Shown here: positions 2-8,453 of the stretch, one piece after another
Numbering within the stretch: the first letter of the stretch is position 1
Layout: each line of letters starts with the position of its first letter
DNA from: Candidatus Tepidifontimicrobium thermophilum
GTDB lineage: Bacteria; Sysuimicrobiota; Sysuimicrobiia; Sysuimicrobiales; Sysuimicrobiaceae
Direction: 5' to 3'
DNA length: 64,000 bases
Assembly: GCA_031296405.1 (NCBI GenBank)
Contig: JAVKKH010000002.1
Span: forward strand, 62,001 to 126,000
Program-made: the position numbers and the translations under genes
The notes under the pieces: generated by a model
What the model saw: only the letters and a program-made list of their open reading frames with translations
Told to the model about the DNA's origin: nothing
The model's database searches: none

Positions 2-598
2 TCCGCCCTCGCCATCGCCCTGGCGGCTGCCGTGGGAGTCGGCGTAGCCGCCGCCCGCACGGCCCCCTTGCCCCCGCTGCGCTGGCTGGGGGCCGCCTAC
101 GTGGAGGTCTTCCGCAACACGCCCTTGCTGGTGCAGATTTTCTTCGTGTTCTTCGGCCTGCCCCGGGTGGGGCTGCGGCTGTCGCCCTTCCAGTCCGGCC
201 TGCTGGCGCTTTCCCTCTACACCGCCGCCTACAACGCGGAGGTCTTCCGCGCGGGACTGGAGGCGGTCCCCCGGGGACTCCGGGAGGCCGCGGCGGCTCT
301 GGGTCTGTCCGGATGGCAGCGCTTCCGCCACGTGGTGCTCCCCGTGGCGGCGCGCATCAGTCTCCCCGCCCTCGGCAACAACTTCGTGGCCCTGGTGAAG
401 AACTCGTCCCTGGTGTCCGCCATCGGCATGGTGGAGCTCACCTTCGTGGCCCGCGACCTGGAAGCGTGGACGTTCCGCAGCTTCGAGGTCTACGGGATGG
501 CCACCCTCCTGTACCTGGCCCTCGTCCTCCTGCTCGTCTGGGCCCTGCGGAACGTGGAGTCGCGAGCCCTCGCGTACCTGCGAGTAGGGGAGCGCTGA
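2..598 (+). CDS. Polar amino-acid ABC transporter permease (5' truncated by window edge)
   Basis: Inner-membrane permease of the HisM/GlnP family, importing a polar amino acid with a periplasmic or lipid-anchored binding protein that lies outside the window. The frame is open to base 2, so the N-terminus and first membrane segment(s) are missing. Visible are the family signature FRNTPLLVQIFF and the EAA cytoplasmic loop (EAAAALGLSGWQRFRHVVLP) that contacts the ATPase, followed by C-terminal hydrophobic segments. The next gene is a paralogous permease and the third is the ATPase, so this is a standard three-gene transport operon. Substrate cannot be told from permease sequence alone. Confidence 0.9.
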   Translation, partial: SALAIALAAAVGVGVAAARTAPLPPLRWLGAAYVEVFRNTPLLVQIFFVFFGLPRVGLRLSPFQSGLLALSLYTAAYNAEVFRAGLEAVPRGLREAAAALGLSGWQRFRHVVLPVAARISLPALGNNFVALVKNSSLVSAIGMVELTFVARDLEAWTFRSFEVYGMATLLYLALVLLLVWALRNVESRALAYLRVGER

Positions 599-604
599 TC
601 GGCG

Positions 605-1255
605 ATGCGCTGGACCGTCGTGGTCGCCAACCTGCCGTACCTCCTGGAAGGCCTGCAGGGTACCGTGCTGCTGGGCCTGCTGGTGATGGCCCTGGGTACA
701 GTCCTGGGGTTTGCGGTGGGGCTCGCGCGTCTAGGGCGGGGCCTAGTGTACGCAGCGGCCACCGCCTTCGTGGAGCTGTTCCGGGACACCCCCCTGATCA
801 TGCAGATCTTCTTCATCTTCTTCGGTCTGCCGGCGGTGGGGATCCGGCTGAACGCGTTTGTCGCCGCCAGCGTGGCCATGACCTTCTTCGCCGCCGCCAA
901 CACCGCGGAGATCGTCCGGGGAGCCATCCAGTCCCTGCCCCGGGGCCAGTGGGAAGCGGCCCGGTCCTTAGGGCTGAGCTCCCTCCAGACGCTCCGCTGG
1001 GTCATCCTGCCCCAGGCCCTGCGGCGCACCCTGCCGCCCCTCATGGGGCTGTTCACCACCCTGCTGAAGGACACTTCCCTGGCCGCCATCGTGAACGTGT
1101 TCGAGCTGACCACCGCGGGGCGGCGCGTCGTGGAACGCACCCTCGCGTCCTTTGAGATCTGGCTCGTGGTGGCGGCGTTGTACTTCCTCTTGTGCTACCC
1201 GCTGTCCGTAGCCACCCAACGCCTGGAACGCCGGCTGGTAGCGGAGGTCCCGTGA
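605..1255 (+). CDS. Polar amino-acid ABC transporter permease, second subunit
   Basis: 216-residue HisM/GlnP-family permease, the partner of the upstream permease for a heterodimeric channel. It carries [15 protein letters not shown] near residue 58 and an EAA loop ([20 protein letters not shown]) around residue 118, the contact point for the nucleotide-binding subunit. The ATG start lies 6 bases after the stop of the preceding permease, and the stop overlaps the GTG start of the ATPase gene by four bases (GTGA), indicating translational coupling. Length is normal for the family. Confidence 0.93.
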
Positions 1256-1995
1256 GCCGCACAGACCCCATCATCCTCCTGCAGGGCGTGCACAAGTGGT
1301 TCGGGAGGCTTCACGTGCTCCGGGGCATCGACCTCGAGGTGTGGCCCGGGGAGGTCGTGGTGGTCTGCGGGCCGTCTGGGTCCGGGAAGTCCACCCTCAT
1401 CCGGTGCATCAACCGGCTGGAGCGGCACGACCGGGGCCGCATCGTGGTGGACGGGATCGAGCTCACCGACGACCTCCGCCACGTGGACGCGGTCCGCCGG
1501 GAGGTCGGCATGGTCTTCCAGCAGTTCAACCTGTTCCCGCACCTGACGGTGCTGCAGAACATCACCCTCGCGCCGGTGCTGGTGCGCAAGTGGCCCCGCG
1601 AGCAGGCGGAGCGGGTGGCCCGGGAGCTGCTGGAACGCGTGGGGATCCCCGAGAAGGCGGACAGCTACCCGTCGCAGCTGTCGGGCGGGCAGCAGCAGCG
1701 CGTGGCCATCGCCCGAGCGCTGGCCATGCAGCCCAAGATCATGCTGTTCGACGAACCCACCTCCGCCCTGGACCCGGAGATGATCCAGGAGGTCCTGGAC
1801 GTGATGCGGGACCTCGCCCGCCGGGGGATGACCATGGTGGTGGTGACCCACGAGATGGGATTTGCGCGGGAGGTGGCGGACCGCATCGTCTTCATGGACG
1901 AGGGCGGCATCGTGGAGGTGGCACCGCCCGAAACCTTCTTCACCCGGCCCCGCCACGAGCGCACCCGGGCCTTCCTGTCGAAGATCCTCCGTTGA
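1252..1995 (+). CDS. Polar amino-acid ABC transporter ATP-binding protein
   Basis: 247-residue GlnQ/HisP-type ATPase that powers the two upstream permeases. Walker A (GPSGSGKST), Q-loop, signature ([15 protein letters not shown]), Walker B ([15 protein letters not shown]) and switch His ([16 protein letters not shown]) are all present. The chosen start is the GTG overlapping the permease stop; an in-frame start 60 bases upstream would lie inside the permease gene and adds no family sequence. The gene is the end of the operon; the next gene is on the opposite strand. Confidence 0.95.
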
Positions 1996-2017: not shown

Positions 2018-3547
2018 CTACAGGCCCCGGCGCTCAGACGTCCCGTCGTCCGCCTTCGGCGCTGCCTCCGCGTGCGTGTACACTGCCGCCGCCAGGTGCG
2101 CGTCCAGCCACACTTCCTGCCCGTCGCACCGCACCCGTAGGCCGCCGGGAGCCCGTTCCACCACCTCCAGGCGGACGCCCGGCCGCACCCCGCGCGCCTC
2201 CAGGGCCCGCAGGACCTCCGGGTCCTCGTCCTCCACCTCCCGGACCTCCACCCGCTCGCCCGGTGCGCGGTCCAGCAGTCGCACGGAGGGTACCGCCCCT
2301 GCGACCTCCGGGGGGATCGGTGACCCGTGGGGGTCCCGCCGGGGATGGCCGAGGGCCTCGTCCAGCCTCGCGGCCAGCTCCGTCGGGCTCAGGTGCTCGA
2401 GCCGCTCTGCCTCCGCGTGGACCTCCGCCCACGACAGGCCCGCCTGTTCCACCAGGTAGCGCTCCCACAGGCGGTGCGAACGGACCAGCTCCACCGCCCT
2501 CGCCCGTCCGGCGTCGGTCAGGCTCACCCGTGACCCGTCCCAGCGCGCCAGCCCCGCCCTCTGTAGCCTCCGCAGGAGCTGCCGGGCCTGGCGCGCCGGG
2601 AGGCCCACACGCTCCGCCACCCGTTCCAGTGCCAAGCCATCCGGGCCGAGCACGTAGGCCTGTTTGAGGAAGTCCTCCGCCACCCGCTCCTCCGCCAGGC
2701 GCCTACGCCGGGCCCACTCCCCCACCAGCCCCTCCCGGGGCCCGAGGAGCACCGCCAAGCAGAACAACACGCTCGCCACGAGGACCATGGTGGCACCGGA
2801 GGCCACGTTCAGGTAGTAGGAGAGGTACAGGCCCGTGACCGCGGACACCACCCCGACCGCCACCGCCAGCCCGAGCATCCGCGACATCCGGTCCGTCAGG
2901 AGGAAAGCCACCCCGCCGGGGGTGATCAACATGGCCACCACCAGCACGATCCCGACGGTTTGCAGGGACGCCACGATGGTCAGCGACAGCAGGAACATGA
3001 GGGTGTAGTGCAGCACCCCTGTGGGCAGTCCCATGGCCGCGGCGGCGACCGGGTCGAAAGTCCACAGGACCAGCTCCTTGTACAGCAGCAGCACCACGCC
3101 CAACACCACCGCGCCCGTGGCCGCGGTGAGCACGAGGTCGGAGTCCGAAACCCCCAGCACGTTCCCGAACAGGATGTGAAACAGGTCCACCGCCTTGCTG
3201 CGGATGCGGCTCACGAGGACGAAGCCCAGGGCAAACGCGCCCGTGAACACGATGCCCATGGCGGAGTCCTCCTTGATCCGGGTGTGCCGCTCCACCGCGG
3301 AGATCCCCAGGGCGGTCAGAATCCCCGTGGTCACCGCCCCCACGAAGAAGGGCAGGCCCAGCAGGTACGCCAGCGCGACCCCTGGCAGCACCGCGTGCGA
3401 GATGGCGTCCCCTAACAGCGCCCACCGCTTGACCAGCAAGAAGCAGCTGAGCACCGCGCAGATGCTGCCCACCAGCAGGGCGGCCATCAGGGCCCGCTGC
3501 ATGAAGGTGTACTGCAGGGGTTCGAGTACCAGCTCCCACAGGCTCAT
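2018..3547 (-). CDS. Metal ABC transporter permease fused to a C-terminal DtxR/MntR-type repressor
   Basis: 509 residues with two unrelated halves in one uninterrupted frame. Residues 1-285 are a ZnuB/MntB/TroC-type metal permease with about eight membrane segments (DAISHAVLPGVALAYLLG, MLITPGGVAFLLTDRM). Residues about 300-509 form a whole DtxR-family regulator: winged helix, the metal-binding/dimerisation helices with the signature HAEAERLEH and DPHGSPIP, and a C-terminal FeoA/SH3-like domain. The ATG start overlaps the ATPase stop (ATGA). The same permease-repressor fusion is known in Chlamydia YtgCR, where the repressor is released by cleavage; whether that happens here is unknown. The operon also encodes a free-standing DtxR homologue. 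Confidence 0.9.
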   Translation of the reverse strand: MSLWELVLEPLQYTFMQRALMAALLVGSICAVLSCFLLVKRWALLGDAISHAVLPGVALAYLLGLPFFVGAVTTGILTALGISAVERHTRIKEDSAMGIVFTGAFALGFVLVSRIRSKAVDLFHILFGNVLGVSDSDLVLTAATGAVVLGVVLLLYKELVLWTFDPVAAAAMGLPTGVLHYTLMFLLSLTIVASLQTVGIVLVVAMLITPGGVAFLLTDRMSRMLGLAVAVGVVSAVTGLYLSYYLNVASGATMVLVASVLFCLAVLLGPREGLVGEWARRRRLAEERVAEDFLKQAYVLGPDGLALERVAERVGLPARQARQLLRRLQRAGLARWDGSRVSLTDAGRARAVELVRSHRLWERYLVEQAGLSWAEVHAEAERLEHLSPTELAARLDEALGHPRRDPHGSPIPPEVAGAVPSVRLLDRAPGERVEVREVEDEDPEVLRALEARGVRPGVRLEVVERAPGGLRVRCDGQEVWLDAHLAAAVYTHAEAAPKADDGTSERRGL

Positions 3548-4305
3548 GGCCGGATCGCCATCCGCTGGTCCGCCACCTCCAGGAGGGTGAGCCGGCCCCC
3601 ATAGGTACGCTGGAGGAGCGCGGGCTGGAACACCTCCGCGGGCGGGCCGTAGGCCACCACGTGCTGGTTCAGCAAGAGCAGCCGGTCGAAAGCGGTCTGG
3701 GCGCGGCTCAGGTCGTGGGTGGCCACCACCACCGTCCGGCCTTCCTCCCGCAACCGGTCCAGCAGGCCGTAGATGGCCTCCTCGGTGGCCGCGTCCACCC
3801 CCACGAAGGGCTCGTCCAGCAGGAGCAGCCGGGCTTCCTGGGCCAGAGCCCTGGCCAGGAAAACCCGCTGCTGCTGGCCCCCGGACAGCTGCCCGATCTG
3901 GCGGTGCGCCAGCTCTTCCATCCCCACCTGCCGCAGGCACTCCCAGGCCACGCGGCGGTCCTCCGTCCGCGGCCGGCGCACCCAGCCCACGTGGGGGAAA
4001 CGCCCCATGAGGACCACTTCCTCCGCCACCACGGGGTAGTCCCAGTCCACCTCGCTGCGCTGCGGGACGTACGCTACCAGCTTGCGCGCCTCCCGGACGG
4101 GCAGGCCGAACAGCTCCACCCGCCCGGTGTCCGGCACCAAAAGCCCCACCAGGGCCCGCAGCAGGGTGGACTTGCCCGCGCCGTTGGGGCCGATGAGTCC
4201 TACCCGCAGCCCTTGGGCCACGACAACGCTCACGTTCCGGATGGCCGGCTTGCCCCGGTAGGATACCGTCAGGTTCTCCACCCGGATGGCCGGAACGTCC
4301 CTCAC
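3544..4305 (-). CDS. Metal ABC transporter ATP-binding protein
   Basis: 253-residue ATPase of the MntA/ZnuC/TroB group energising import of Mn, Zn or Fe through the adjacent permease. Walker A GPNGAGKST, Q-loop VPQRSEVDWDYPV (typical of metal transporters), signature LSGGQQQR and Walker B LLLLDEPF are present. The GTG start overlaps the stop of the binding-protein gene (GTGA) and the stop overlaps the permease start (ATGA), so all four genes of this operon are translationally coupled. Confidence 0.94.
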   Translation of the reverse strand: MRDVPAIRVENLTVSYRGKPAIRNVSVVVAQGLRVGLIGPNGAGKSTLLRALVGLLVPDTGRVELFGLPVREARKLVAYVPQRSEVDWDYPVVAEEVVLMGRFPHVGWVRRPRTEDRRVAWECLRQVGMEELAHRQIGQLSGGQQQRVFLARALAQEARLLLLDEPFVGVDAATEEAIYGLLDRLREEGRTVVVATHDLSRAQTAFDRLLLLNQHVVAYGPPAEVFQPALLQRTYGGRLTLLEVADQRMAIRP

Positions 4306-5201
4306 CGCAGCGCCTCCACGATGGCCCGGACGTTGTGCCGCATCATCCCCACGTAGGTGTCCGCGCCGCTGCCCGGAGGCCCCAGGGAGTCCCCGTACAG
4401 CTTCTGGCCGATGCGGACCCCTGCTTCCCGCGCCACCCGTTCCATCAGTTTGGGGTTGATGGTGGTCTCCACGAACACCGCGGGGACTCCCTCTGCACGG
4501 ATGCGGTCCACCAGGCGCGCGATCTCCTGCGCGGAGGGCTCGTCCTCGGTACTGATCCCCCAGATGGTGCCCACCACCTGGAACCCGTACCGCTGGCCGA
4601 AGTAGCGGAAGGCGTCGTGGGTGGTGACCAGCTTGCGGCGGTGAGCCGGGATACGGGTCACCTGTTCCCGGATCCAGCCGTGCAGGGCGTCCAGCTCCCG
4701 CAACGCGCGGGCTGCGTTGGCCTCGTAGGTGGACGCGCCGGCAGGGTCGAAGGACCGGAGCGCGTCCCGCGCGTTCAGGACGTACTGCTTGGCGAACACG
4801 GGGTCCATCCACAGGTGCGGGTCAGGGTCTCCCCGGTACCGCCCCTCCGTCTGCAGGGCGGGGCGCAGACCCCGGGTGAGTTCCACCGACAGCCGACGGC
4901 CGCCGGCGTTCTCGATGAGCTCCTCCAGCCACTTCTCCAGCCCCAGCCCGTTGTAGAAGACGACCTGGGCTTCCGCCACCTTCTGCACGTCCCGGGGTAC
5001 CGGCTCGTAAGTGTGGGGGTCGCCGCCCACCGGGATCAGGCTCACCACCTCCACCCGGTCGCCCGCCACCTGCGAGACGAAGTCCGCGAGGATGTTGATG
5101 GTGGCCACCGCCTTGGGTCGGGTGGCCGAGGGAGCCGGGGCCGGCGCGCAGCCTGCGAGGATCAGGGCCACCACCGACACGAGCACCCCGGCGCCCCTCA
5201 T
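4302..5201 (-). CDS. Metal ABC transporter substrate-binding lipoprotein (ZnuA/MntC/TroA family)
   Basis: 299-residue cluster A-I solute-binding protein. The N-terminus MRGAGVLVSVVALILAGC is a lipoprotein signal peptide with Cys about residue 18. Metal ligands are visible as His in GGDPHTYEP, His in DPHLWMDP and His in TTHDAFRYFG, with an acidic residue in the C-terminal YGDSLG region. The long His-rich loop seen in many zinc-specific ZnuA proteins is absent, so manganese or iron is possible. The ATG start overlaps the stop of the regulator gene (ATGA). Longer in-frame starts would run into that regulator and lack a signal peptide. Confidence 0.94.
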   Translation of the reverse strand: MRGAGVLVSVVALILAGCAPAPAPSATRPKAVATINILADFVSQVAGDRVEVVSLIPVGGDPHTYEPVPRDVQKVAEAQVVFYNGLGLEKWLEELIENAGGRRLSVELTRGLRPALQTEGRYRGDPDPHLWMDPVFAKQYVLNARDALRSFDPAGASTYEANAARALRELDALHGWIREQVTRIPAHRRKLVTTHDAFRYFGQRYGFQVVGTIWGISTEDEPSAQEIARLVDRIRAEGVPAVFVETTINPKLMERVAREAGVRIGQKLYGDSLGPPGSGADTYVGMMRHNVRAIVEALR

Positions 5202-5851
5202 TCCTGCACCTCCCGGACGAACACGCCCTCCGCGGCCTTCACCGGCAGCCGGTGGGTGGCTTCTGCCGTCTGCACGGTCAGCGACCCGCCCGACTTCCGC
5301 AGCACCCGCAGCTGTGCGCCGGGCAGCAGGGCTAGGCACGCAAGACGCCGGAGCCGATCCGGGTCGCTGTCGCTCACTCGTTCCACACGGAAGGTCCTGC
5401 CCGCCGGGGCCTCGGAAAGCCGGGGGTGCTGCTCCTCGTTCAGCTGCCCGGCCCGGCTGGGGATGGGGTCCCCGTGAGGGTCTGAGGTGGGATCTCCCAG
5501 CGCCCGCGCGATACGCTCTTCCAGGTCCTCCGACAGGGCGTGCTCCAGCCGCTCCGCCTCCGCGTGGGCCTGCTCGATGGGCAGCCCCAACTTGACCGTC
5601 AGGTACAGCTCCAGCAGCCGGTGGTGTCGGATCACCTCCAGGGCCGCCCGCTGGCCCGCCGCGGTCAGGCGCACACCGTGGTACGGCGTGTGCGTCACCA
5701 GCCCCTGCGCGCTCATCCGCTTCAGCATCTTGGTGACGGAGGCGGGTGCCACCTGCAGGTGAGCTGCGATGGCGTTGGTGGCCACCGGCACGCCAGACCG
5801 CCCCAGCTTGTAGATCGCCTTCAGGTAGTCCTCTACCGCGGCCGAGGTCAC
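5198..5851 (-). CDS. DtxR/MntR-family metal-dependent transcriptional repressor
   Basis: 217-residue regulator and first gene of the metal transport operon. Residues 1-65 are the winged helix (VEDYLKAIYKL through GVRLTAAG); 70-130 hold the metal-binding and dimerisation helices (HRLLELYLTVKLG, HAEAERLEHALS, DPHGDPIPS); 145-217 form the FeoA/SH3-like domain. The GTG start is preceded by GGAG at 9 bases. It probably represses its own operon through the two palindromes just upstream. Its C-terminal half closely parallels the repressor domain fused to the permease at the far end of the same operon. Confidence 0.95.
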   Translation of the reverse strand: MTSAAVEDYLKAIYKLGRSGVPVATNAIAAHLQVAPASVTKMLKRMSAQGLVTHTPYHGVRLTAAGQRAALEVIRHHRLLELYLTVKLGLPIEQAHAEAERLEHALSEDLEERIARALGDPTSDPHGDPIPSRAGQLNEEQHPRLSEAPAGRTFRVERVSDSDPDRLRRLACLALLPGAQLRVLRKSGGSLTVQTAEATHRLPVKAAEGVFVREVQE

Positions 5852-5855
5852 GCTC

Positions 5856-5871
5856 TTTAGCTCCAGCTAAA
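5856..5871 (-). promoter_or_regulatory. Candidate DtxR-type operator overlapping the ribosome binding site
   Basis: Perfect 7-base inverted repeat TTTAGCT-CC-AGCTAAA ending 4 bases before the regulator's GTG start and containing its GGAG Shine-Dalgarno. The half-site resembles DtxR/IdeR/MntR boxes (TTAGGT-like and TTTGCC-like). Position suggests autoregulation of the metal operon. Confidence 0.65.
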
Positions 5872-5879
5872 TTGGTCTG

Positions 5880-5894
5880 GGCTAAAATTTAGCC
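5880..5894 (-). promoter_or_regulatory. Second candidate DtxR-type operator covering the -10 element
   Basis: GGCTAAA-A-TTTAGCC is a perfect 7-base inverted repeat around one base. It shares the core GCTAAA/TTTAGC with the first palindrome; the two centres are about 23 bases, or roughly two helical turns, apart. It lies on the predicted -10 hexamer of the operon promoter. Confidence 0.65.
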
Positions 5895-5914
5895 TGCCTG
5901 CCGGTCTCTGTCAA
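5886..5914 (-). promoter_or_regulatory. Sigma70-type promoter of the metal transport operon
   Basis: On the minus strand a perfect -35 TTGACA (5914-5909) is followed by a 17-base spacer and a -10 TAAATT (5891-5886; 4 of 6 to consensus). Transcription would start near 5880, giving a leader of about 30 bases. The -10 lies inside the palindrome at 5880-5894, so bound repressor would block polymerase. Confidence 0.75.
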
Positions 5915-5980: not shown

Positions 5981-6394
5981 ATGGCGGACGTGGTGCGGCG
6001 CGTGGAGTACCAGTACGTGGTGGTGCCGGACCGGCCTGGCGAGGGGCTCCGGGTACTGGCCGCCCTGCAGCGGGCGGGGGTGAACCTGCTGGCGTACCTG
6101 GGGTTCCCCGTGGAGGGCGGGCGCGCCCAGCTGGACCTGGTGGCGGAGAATCCCGACGCACTGCGGCGGGTGGCCGCGCAGGAGGGCTGGCAGCTGAGCG
6201 CGCCCAAGCAAGCGTTCCTGGTACAGGGCGACGACCGGGTCGGGGCGGCCGGTGAGCACATCCGCAAGCTGAGCGAGGCGGGCATCAACATCACCGCGGC
6301 TGCCGCCACCGCCGCAGGGGCCGGCCGCTACGGCATGATCCTCTGGGTGAAAGCGGAGGACTACGAGCGGGCGGCCCAGATCCTGGGCGCCTAG
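5981..6394 (+). CDS. Tandem ACT-domain protein
   Basis: 137-residue stand-alone protein made of two ACT-type ligand-binding modules: residues 8-65 (VVPDRPGEGLRVLAALQRAGVN) and 70-137 (HIRKLSEAGINITAAAA, ending with a MILWVKAEDYERAAQIL strand-helix). No catalytic domain is attached, so a small-molecule sensing role is likely but the ligand is unknown. ATG 5981 is chosen because AGAGGGGG lies 6 bases upstream; an ATG at 5948 would add an unrelated 11 residues. Divergent from the metal operon; its stop overlaps that of the convergent hydrolase gene. Confidence 0.8.
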   Translation: MADVVRRVEYQYVVVPDRPGEGLRVLAALQRAGVNLLAYLGFPVEGGRAQLDLVAENPDALRRVAAQEGWQLSAPKQAFLVQGDDRVGAAGEHIRKLSEAGINITAAAATAAGAGRYGMILWVKAEDYERAAQILGA

Positions 6395-7041
6395 GAGCTT
6401 GCCAGGTACCTCGCGAACCAGTCCGCGGCCAAGTCGGCTACACGCTCCAGGGCGCCCGGCTCTTCGAAAAGGTGGCCCGCTCCCGGGACCACCTCCAGGC
6501 GTTTCTCGCACGTTAGCAGCCGGAAGGCTTCCCGATTGAGCTGCAGGACTGGCTCGTCCGCCCCTCCGACGATCAACAGGGTGGGCGCCCTGACCAGAAG
6601 CAGGACTTCCCGTGCCAGGTCGGGCCTGCCGCCGCGGGACACCACCGCGGCTACCCCTTCGGGATCTGCCGCCGCTGCCCGCAGGGCCGCGGCCGCGCCC
6701 GTACTGGCCCCGAAAAGGCCCACCCGGAGCCCCCGGAGGTCGTCGTGGTTGGCCGTCCAGGCAACCGCCCGAAGCAGCCGGTCCGCCAGCAGGGTGACGT
6801 CGAACCGGTACCGGCCGGTCCCCGCATCCTCCTGTTCCTCCTGGGCAGTGAGGAGGTCCAGCAGCAGGGTGGCCAGCCCCCGCTCCTGGAGCCTCCGCGC
6901 CACGAACCGGTTGCGGGGGCTGAAGCGGCTGCTCCCGCTGCCGTGAGCGAACAGCACCAGCCCCTTCGCTCCCCGCGGGACCGAGAGGTCTCCGAACACC
7001 CCGGCCCCGTCCAGGGGTATCCGCACCGCCTGCTCCTCCAC
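6391..7041 (-). CDS. Alpha/beta hydrolase (dienelactone-hydrolase-like)
   Basis: 216-residue small alpha/beta hydrolase. The oxyanion region (LFAHGSGSSRFSPRN), nucleophile elbow GASTG, Asp in VGGADEPV and His in GAGHLFEEPG form a normal Ser-Asp-His triad. This group is often annotated as a DLH-family hydrolase or putative phosphoribosyltransferase-associated hydrolase; substrate is unknown. The GTG at 7041 is preferred because GGGGAGGGG lies about 8 bases upstream, while the ATG at 7068 has no ribosome binding site and would add nine residues. Confidence 0.85.
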   Translation of the reverse strand: MEEQAVRIPLDGAGVFGDLSVPRGAKGLVLFAHGSGSSRFSPRNRFVARRLQERGLATLLLDLLTAQEEQEDAGTGRYRFDVTLLADRLLRAVAWTANHDDLRGLRVGLFGASTGAAAALRAAAADPEGVAAVVSRGGRPDLAREVLLLVRAPTLLIVGGADEPVLQLNREAFRLLTCEKRLEVVPGAGHLFEEPGALERVADLAADWFARYLASS

Positions 7042-7091
7042 GGGACGTTTCCCCTCCCCTGCTATCATGGACCCGGAGGGAGCAGGACGCC

Positions 7092-7295
7092 ATGCCGGTC
7101 TACGAGTACGTCTGCACCGAGTGCGGGGACCGCTTCGAACGCCTGGTAGGGCACGCGGACGCCGACGCTGTCTTCTGCGAGCGCTGTGGGTCCCGCAACG
7201 TCCGTCGTCTAGTGTCCCTGATCGCGGCTCCACGGCCGGCGCGCTCGTCCGCAGGTTGCGGCTGCGGCGGGGCCTGCAGCTGCGGGACCCACTAG
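7092..7295 (+). CDS. FmdB-family zinc-ribbon regulatory protein
   Basis: 67-residue protein beginning MPVYEYVCTECGDRFE with a second CxxC (FCERCGS), the two knuckles of an FmdB/CxxC_CxxC_SSSS zinc ribbon, and a short Cys/Gly-rich tail (GCGCGGACSC). GGAGGGAG lies upstream of the ATG. Such proteins are small putative regulators; the actual role is not established. Divergent from the hydrolase gene with about 50 bases between starts. Confidence 0.9.
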   Translation: MPVYEYVCTECGDRFERLVGHADADAVFCERCGSRNVRRLVSLIAAPRPARSSAGCGCGGACSCGTH

Positions 7296-7589
7296 GTCGC
7301 GCTCGCCTCCTCCCCAAGTCTAGGAGCCCGCCCGTCCGAATTGCCGAAAGCGACCGGCTCCCTCGTGAGGAGGACGCGAAACCAGCTCGTCCCGGATACC
7401 CCTGTCCGGCCACGGGCCCCTTGTCCGTCCGTGCGTTCTGGGCCTGCGAGAACTCCTTTAAGCCTTCGAGGGCATGGGGATTGGCGTCGTCATCCGACGC
7501 GACGACGGTGAACGCCAGCTGGAGCCCGCTGACCGCGAAGAGCGTGTGCCGACAGCTCCGGGCCCGCCCTCGACCAGCGGTGACGCGGT
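7296..7589. other. Intergenic stretch, no supported gene
   Basis: About 294 bases between the FmdB gene and the 3' end of korB. Reading frames on both strands are open for tens of codons but show no family signature, no ribosome binding site and a less biased base composition than flanking genes. No terminator with a U-tract and no convincing promoter is seen. It may be a decayed gene. Confidence 0.5.
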
Positions 7590-8453
7590 CTACCGGTAGG
7601 TCGCCAGGACCGGCTCCAGGTCCACCCCGGACAGCTCGTCCTCCCACAGGGGCAACCGGCGCTGGGGCCGCTTGGGTCGCGGGTTCCGGTACACCACGCC
7701 AAGCGGGATCTTGCCCCGCCGCGCGAACTCCCGCACCAACCGCCAGGCCGCGTCCCGGTCGGAGGGGTCGTGGTCCTCGGGCACGTGCTCCACCCGCTCC
7801 CGGAACCAGTCGTACGTGTTGAAGCGGTTGTACGTGACGCAGGGGGAGAAGTCGTTGATGAACGCGAAGCCGGGGTGCTGGATGGCCTCCACGATCATCC
7901 GCGCTGTGTGCTTGACGTCCCCGCTGAAGGACTGCGCCACGAAGGTGGCCTCGCTGGCCAACGCCAGCAGGAGGGCGTCCACCATGGGCGGGTGCTCCTC
8001 CCGGCTGCCCCGTTCGTCCGGCTGCCCCAGGCCTGCGGTGGGCGAGTCCTGTCCCTTGGTAAGCCCGTACACCCCGTTGTTCATCACCAGCAGCACCATG
8101 TCAGGGTCCCGCCGGCACACGTGCACGAAGTTCTCCACCCCGATGGCGAAGGTGTCGCCGTCCCCGGCCAGGCAGATGACCTTCAGGTCCGGGTTCGCCA
8201 TCTTCGCGCCCAGCCCGTAGGCGAGGGCGCCCCCGTGGGTCCCGTGGAACGCGTTGCCGTTCAGGTAGTTGCGGATCTGGCCCGAGCAACCGATCCCGCC
8301 CACCAGGAGCAGCTCGTGCGGCATGACCTCCAGTTCCGTCAGGGCCTGCTTGAGGGCTGCCAGCACCCCGAAGTCCCCGCAGCCCGGGCACCACTGGATG
8401 CGGTGCTTGGGGACCGCGTTCTCCTCCCAGAGCTTAATCCCCTTCGTGTTCAT
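7590..8453 (-). CDS. korB: 2-oxoacid:ferredoxin oxidoreductase beta subunit
   Basis: 287-residue thiamine-diphosphate-binding beta subunit of a 2-oxoglutarate (or related 2-oxoacid) ferredoxin oxidoreductase, catalysing reversible oxidative decarboxylation to acyl-CoA with ferredoxin reduction. The iron-sulfur ligand CPGCGDFG and GIGCSGQ, and the TPP/Mg motif LAGDGDTFAIGVENF...NNGVYGLTKGQ are intact. Length fits the short beta type of the KorAB family. The ATG start lies 20 bases inside the 3' end of korA, so the subunits are translationally coupled. Confidence 0.93.
   Translation of the reverse strand: MNTKGIKLWEENAVPKHRIQWCPGCGDFGVLAALKQALTELEVMPHELLLVGGIGCSGQIRNYLNGNAFHGTHGGALAYGLGAKMANPDLKVICLAGDGDTFAIGVENFVHVCRRDPDMVLLVMNNGVYGLTKGQDSPTAGLGQPDERGSREEHPPMVDALLLALASEATFVAQSFSGDVKHTARMIVEAIQHPGFAFINDFSPCVTYNRFNTYDWFRERVEHVPEDHDPSDRDAAWRLVREFARRGKIPLGVVYRNPRPKRPQRRLPLWEDELSGVDLEPVLATYR

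Follow-up and report, generated by a model that had tools for sequence, protein, structure and literature searches.

A permease-fused DtxR-like domain that has kept its metal site but not its DNA-recognition helix: a candidate feedback sensor of an ABC metal importer

In the window analyzed here, the whole stretch of 64,000 nucleotides taken from a genome of 2.44 Mb in 38 contigs, a single gene (P0001) encodes an ABC-3 metal permease that continues in frame into a DtxR-like tail. The tail keeps the metal site of the DtxR/MntR regulators, and the alignments indicate that its DNA-recognition helix is lost and almost without constraint. A separate and intact MntR-type regulator is encoded in the same operon, downstream of conserved operator-like boxes. 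We therefore favor, with moderate confidence, the reading that the fused tail provides metal-sensing feedback on its own transporter, in the manner of trans-inhibition, and that transcription is left to the separate MntR. The permease-DtxR architecture is already known; what appears to be new, with respect to the open-access literature, is the kept metal site together with the lost DNA-reading helix in the sampled lineages.

The fused gene and its operon

P0001 starts with ATG at 3547 and its stop codon ends at 2018 on the minus strand (Table 1), and its 509 codons run in one open frame from permease to winged helix, metal domain and FeoA domain, just as the initial annotation had read them. 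The permease had been called ZnuB-like; it is indeed a complete ABC-3 permease, but MntB/PsaB-like is the more fitting label, since its best solved relative is PsaB, the pneumococcal Mn permease, which shares the fold with 41% identity in the structural match and, unlike P0001, carries no C-terminal sensor. The winged helix gave no Pfam match to Fe_dep_repress (PF01325) and matched generic HTH models weakly. Thus, among the traits of the DtxR/MntR family, the tail has the metal/dimer domain with its ligands (PF02742) and lacks the Fe_dep_repress domain and the conserved recognition helix. An ABC-3 permease and a DtxR-like domain within one open frame is also the architecture of the YtgCR kind.

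The fused gene is the last of a four-gene operon in the order MntR-type regulator, binding lipoprotein, ATPase and fused permease, with successive overlaps of 4 bp (ATGA or GTGA). The permease, ATPase and binding protein of an Mn/Zn/Fe ABC importer are thereby encoded side by side. For the lipoprotein P0004 the best NCBIfam model was Deinococcus MntC, with a score below the cut-off of that model. A separate DtxR protein in the same operon had been claimed earlier, and P0002 bears this out. It matches all three domains (Fe_dep_repress with E 2.8e-18) and PDB entry 8pvt (172 bits), and it possesses what is expected of a DtxR/MntR regulator, namely DNA-binding, metal and FeoA domains, a conserved recognition helix and a putative operator. 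With up to 1 mismatch allowed, the palindrome upstream of P0002 occurs nowhere else in the genome, and the pair of boxes recurs with exactly 15-bp spacing in 7/7 orthologous operons. The separate MntR is likewise part of the fused operon in all seven genomes of the family. In two more distant genomes of the phylum, G001 and G003, the MntR gene is absent from the fused operon; G001 has a similar box, TTTAGGTTAGACTAAA, close to where the binding-protein gene begins, and no operator box was found in the operon of G003.

Two neighbors of the operon were recognized by eye. A gene for an ACT-domain-like protein of about 137 aa (5981-6394, plus strand) is divergent from the mntR operon, the MntR boxes lying in the short region between the two, and two polar amino-acid ABC permeases with an ATPase (32-1995, plus strand) converge on the metal operon.

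Table 1. Features of the fused gene and its operon (positions in the window)
Feature	Position	Strand	Evidence
P0001, fused permease-DtxR-like protein, 509 aa	2018..3547	-	Single open frame; fusion also in 8 more genomes of the phylum
ABC-3 metal permease domain, residues 12-267	2747..3514	-	Pfam PF00950 E 4.7e-85; Foldseek PsaB 7kyp, TM (target) 0.84-0.90
Predicted continuous helix 274-299, from permease end into DtxR-like helix 1, bearing metal ligand D292	2651..2728	-	AlphaFold2 pLDDT 91-94
Winged-helix domain, residues 286-343, degenerate as DtxR DNA-binding domain	2519..2692	-	No Fe_dep_repress match; pN/pS 0.43-0.87
Recognition helix, residues 317-330, PARQARQLLRRLQR	2558..2599	-	No [ST][VA][ST] motif
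Metal-binding/dimerization domain Fe_dep_repr_C, residues 344-412	2312..2518	-	PF02742 E 3.4e-27
FeoA/SH3-like domain, residues 423-490	2078..2281	-	PF04023 E 1.3e-13
P0003, ABC ATPase of the importer, GTG start	3544..4305	-	ATGA overlap with fused gene, GTGA overlap with binding-protein gene
P0004, metal-binding lipoprotein, ZnuA/MntC type	4302..5201	-	PF01297 E 1.8e-94
P0002, separate MntR/DtxR-type regulator, recognition helix APASVTKM intact	5198..5851	-	Fe_dep_repress, Fe_dep_repr_C, FeoA; ATGA overlap with next gene
Operator-like palindrome TTTAGCTCCAGCTAAA, just upstream of P0002	5856..5871		Expected 0.02 in window
Second, imperfect box 15 bp off; palindrome 5880-5894 overlaps it	5871..5886		Two-box arrangement in 7 orthologous operons
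Promoter-like TTGACA (5914-5909) and TAAATT (5891-5886), 17 nt apart; overlaps the boxes	5886..5914	-	Read from sequence

Metal site, recognition helix and predicted fold of the tail

The alignment comprised 83 fused DtxR domains and 38 separate ones; three of the fused rows consisted of a winged helix only, hence 80 were scored. The core ligands H79, E83, E105 and H106 (DtxR numbering) were found in 80/80 fused domains having the metal domain. All 80 also carry a tryptophan at position 82 (HRLWE) that occurs in no intact separate regulator, the two rows labeled as separate that do have W82 being fragments which resemble cut fused proteins. P0001 itself keeps D292, H358, E362, H377, E381, E384 and H385 and has the added W361. 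Among nine orthologues the metal/dimer domain showed a mean pairwise identity of 0.79 in the fused against 0.74 in the separate proteins, with pN/pS of 0.07-0.24 and 0.13-0.26, respectively, and both the metal and the FeoA domains of the fused protein are under clear purifying selection. In part of the fused subfamily the ligand positions 10, 98 and 102 of DtxR (columns 14, 103 and 107) are changed to N/H, D and D, which could reflect a different metal, or a sensing paired with a non-sensing subunit.

The recognition helix gave the opposite picture. Its DtxR/MntR motif [ST][VA][ST] was present in 0/80 fused domains versus 34 of the 38 rows scored as separate, and two of the four separate rows without it (L045, L139) resemble fused proteins cut by the end of the locus; when a shift of register was allowed, one fused row gained the motif. 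Across the nine orthologues the fused helix reads PARQARQ, SARRAWQ, PRRHASR, PPRRVRW and so on, while the separate regulators have APASVTKM almost throughout (mean pairwise identity 0.26 versus 0.90). The pN/pS of this helix was 0.57-1.23 in the fused and 0-0.25 in the separate proteins, a contrast that recurs in six pairs, although single values are rough as they come from just 13 codons. The fused helix bears a net charge of about +2.5, and because the winged helix stays basic and, in the model, folded, contact with DNA or lipid is possible. Loss of the wing was dropped as a sign of degeneracy, since IdeR-type regulators likewise lack the Y-G wing. The tail had been described earlier as a full DtxR-type repressor; its domain order and metal site agree with this description, whereas its DNA-reading part does not. 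The further suggestion that two repressors compare flux and metal level is for the same reason unlikely, and one repressor (P0002) with a metal sensor fixed to the transporter fits better with a degenerate fused helix and a strictly kept metal site. Compared with MntR, DtxR and IdeR (PDB 8pvt, 5zr4, 1fx7), the tail thus has the same order of winged helix, metal/dimer and FeoA-like domains and the same ligand positions, and differs from them in being fused to a permease, in having no conserved DNA-reading helix and in its W at position 82.

In a tree of the metal/dimer domain, calculated without most winged-helix columns and without the W column, only 2 changes between fused and separate labels were needed as against 28.9 in shuffles, which suggests that the fused domains form an old subfamily, though the tree has few columns and many open forks. 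The fused domains fall into two groups, which largely match the two permease subunits.

An AlphaFold2 model of the fused protein, computed as a monomer with 42 fused sequences, reached a mean pLDDT of 90 and a pTM of 0.74. Foldseek matched its permease to PsaB and its tail to MntR/IdeR, and the winged helix, whose folding had been put forward as a check on the initial annotation, is predicted to be folded. The model places an unbroken helix (274-299) across the junction of permease and tail, the part of it that corresponds to DtxR helix 1 holding D292. In DtxR and MntR, binding of metal changes the position of helix 1 with respect to the dimer domain. With helix 1 of the tail bolted to the permease in the model, such a movement suggests a route from metal to transport.

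Distribution and graded forms of the fusion

The full-length fusion was found in 9 of the 43 genomes of the phylum at 53-94% identity, that is, in 7/7 genomes of the family of the window and in two more distant ones at 53-55%. The eight genomes other than that of the window carry it in the same single frame, which speaks against a stop or frameshift at the junction. Three of these eight also turned up as named records, and the nearest named records were an uncultured MAG at 94%, Armatimonadetes SKYB51 at 82% and bacterium HR32 at 79%. A search for permease-DtxR architectures across genomes, as proposed earlier, found them also in other phyla, the names of which were taken from the titles of the seed-locus records. 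A match that began in the permease and reached the metal domain was present in about 58 of 195 Planctomycetota genomes (tallied from the search table), in 16/145 of Verrucomicrobiota and, among 100 Spirochaetota, in the seed genome alone, all three counts being lower bounds owing to strict E-value limits. Permease-DtxR fusions have been reported in 11 phyla (review, PMC5599777). Conservation across the phylum, Planctomycetota and Verrucomicrobiota thus shows that the fusion is genuine and not uncommon.

At about 20 of the fetched loci both adjacent permeases are fused, so that each transporter there would have two tails. The tails are graded, comprising winged helix, metal and FeoA domains, or winged helix and metal domain, or the winged helix alone. 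Some Planctomycetota pair a permease having winged helix and metal domain with a partner having the winged helix only, and in Opitutales the partner of the fused permease is bare. That the winged helix persists without a metal domain favors a function as part of the transporter over one as a repressor.

Further variants were seen at single loci. In the Anaerolineae loci L041 (ORFs 5989-7137 and 7067-8302) and L042 (5953-7125 and 8358-9464) both permeases have C-terminal winged-helix tails of about 90-100 residues without a metal domain, and at the Planctomycetota loci L106, L107, L108, L115, L118 and L123 only the partner permease has a winged-helix-only tail. In two Rhodococcus loci (L010, 6880-7680; L011, 6880-7683) a permease and an MntR adjoin in the same frame with one stop codon between them, the loss of which would yield a fusion. 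An account of the fusions as read-through of adjacent genes was nevertheless rejected, as the tree sets the fused domains in groups of their own, apart from the Rhodococcus MntRs.

Possible roles of the fused tail

We propose that the operon encodes a manganese-type (Mn/Fe) ABC importer, in which the C-terminal part of the sole permease would be a former DtxR/MntR regulator. With two copies of the permease in each importer, two tails would come together. Cytoplasmic metal, on filling the DtxR-type sites, would make the tails dimerize or re-orient as DtxR does, and since helix 1 of the tail is predicted to be a rigid extension of the last permease helix, the transporter would be restrained and uptake slowed. 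The separate MntR, encoded by the first gene, would act on the two boxes and control transcription. The identity of the metal, the homodimer, the direction of the effect and its mechanism, and with them trans-inhibition by internal metal as such, are what we infer from the anatomy of the protein. The proposed likeness is to MetNI and ModABC, in which cytoplasmic substrate-binding domains pair in the dimeric importer and halt transport; there the domain has an unrelated fold and sits on the ATPase, whereas here it sits on the permease and is borrowed from a gene regulator. The trans-inhibition domains known to us are all on the ATPase and not on the permease, which counts against a feedback role, as do the loci pairing a fused with a bare permease, where each transporter has one tail. 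On the other hand, trans-inhibition is usually exerted via fused regulatory domains (PMC10710835). In the open-access literature, with most subscription journals lying outside its scope, we found no description of a DtxR-type transporter brake.

The closest known protein is YtgCR of Chlamydia trachomatis (CT069), and the likeness drawn earlier holds in that in both an ABC-3 permease runs on in the same frame into a DtxR-like domain, and the gene belongs to a metal ABC operon. The repressor part of YtgCR is cleaved and binds DNA (PMC5599777, PMC6504234), and no iron-dependent regulator other than YtgR has been identified in Chlamydia (PMC6504234). YtgR, the sole studied fusion, being reported as DNA-binding (PMC5599777) is also an argument against feedback, and by analogy the present tail could be a true metal-dependent repressor with an operator of its own, acting from the membrane or released by cleavage or internal initiation. 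It remains a folded, basic winged helix, and a GTG at codon 277, following GGGAGGGG, could begin a free tail. We nevertheless regard such a repressor as unlikely, because its recognition helix is unconserved among orthologues 79-94% identical while the boxes of the operon are conserved, because [ST][VA][ST] is missing from every scored fused domain, and because the modeled junction is a rigid helix. The candidate start at codon 277 is absent from L008 and from the more distant genomes. Compared with YtgR, which is reported to be cleaved and to bind DNA, the operon here has an intact MntR and the fused helix is degenerate. As an observation on its own, GGGAGGGG with the following GTG (2705-2735, minus strand) has a similar counterpart in L007 and G036 and none in several others; an internal start at this codon was set aside as weak and not conserved.

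A kept dimer/metal domain with lost DNA reading, encoded in one operon with MntR in seven genomes, would also suit a decoy, that is, a membrane-held tail forming mixed metal-dependent dimers with MntR and thereby tuning repression to the number of transporters. This is decidedly unlikely in our estimate, as G001 and G003 lack an MntR gene in the fused operon, none is seen close by at several of the Planctomycetota and Verrucomicrobiota loci that were fetched, and the tail is just about 38% identical to MntR. The graded tail forms suggest that some of the tail, at least, is structural, and the tail might then be a passive metal buffer or a domain for assembly or stability of the importer with no feedback on transport; near-invariant ligands across phyla point to metal sensing instead and make a purely passive domain improbable. 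Finally, the high pN/pS of the winged helix is what a dying domain would show, and an assembly error or read-through might be thought of as well. Such an origin is highly improbable and already largely refuted by the open frame shared by nine genomes of the phylum and by dozens outside it, by the clear purifying selection on the metal and FeoA domains and by the well-folded model.

Feedback on the transporter, with repression left to MntR, is thus the reading we retain, and by its sequence the fused domain probably acts on the transporter. Its extension to the permease-fused DtxR domains of several phyla, as an old and separate subfamily of transporter feedback sensors and not repressors, in which a gene regulator would have become an allosteric brake with the metal signal passing through the continuous helix, is put forward tentatively, at slightly less than even chances. 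The sources found describe no case in this family of ABC importers where cytoplasmic Mn/Fe feeds back on the activity of the importer, as distinct from its transcription. The architecture alone should not lead to permease-DtxR fusions being labeled as membrane-bound repressors, and if the feedback reading is true, the DNA binding of the YtgCR-type ‘repressors’ reported from other phyla would need to be re-examined.
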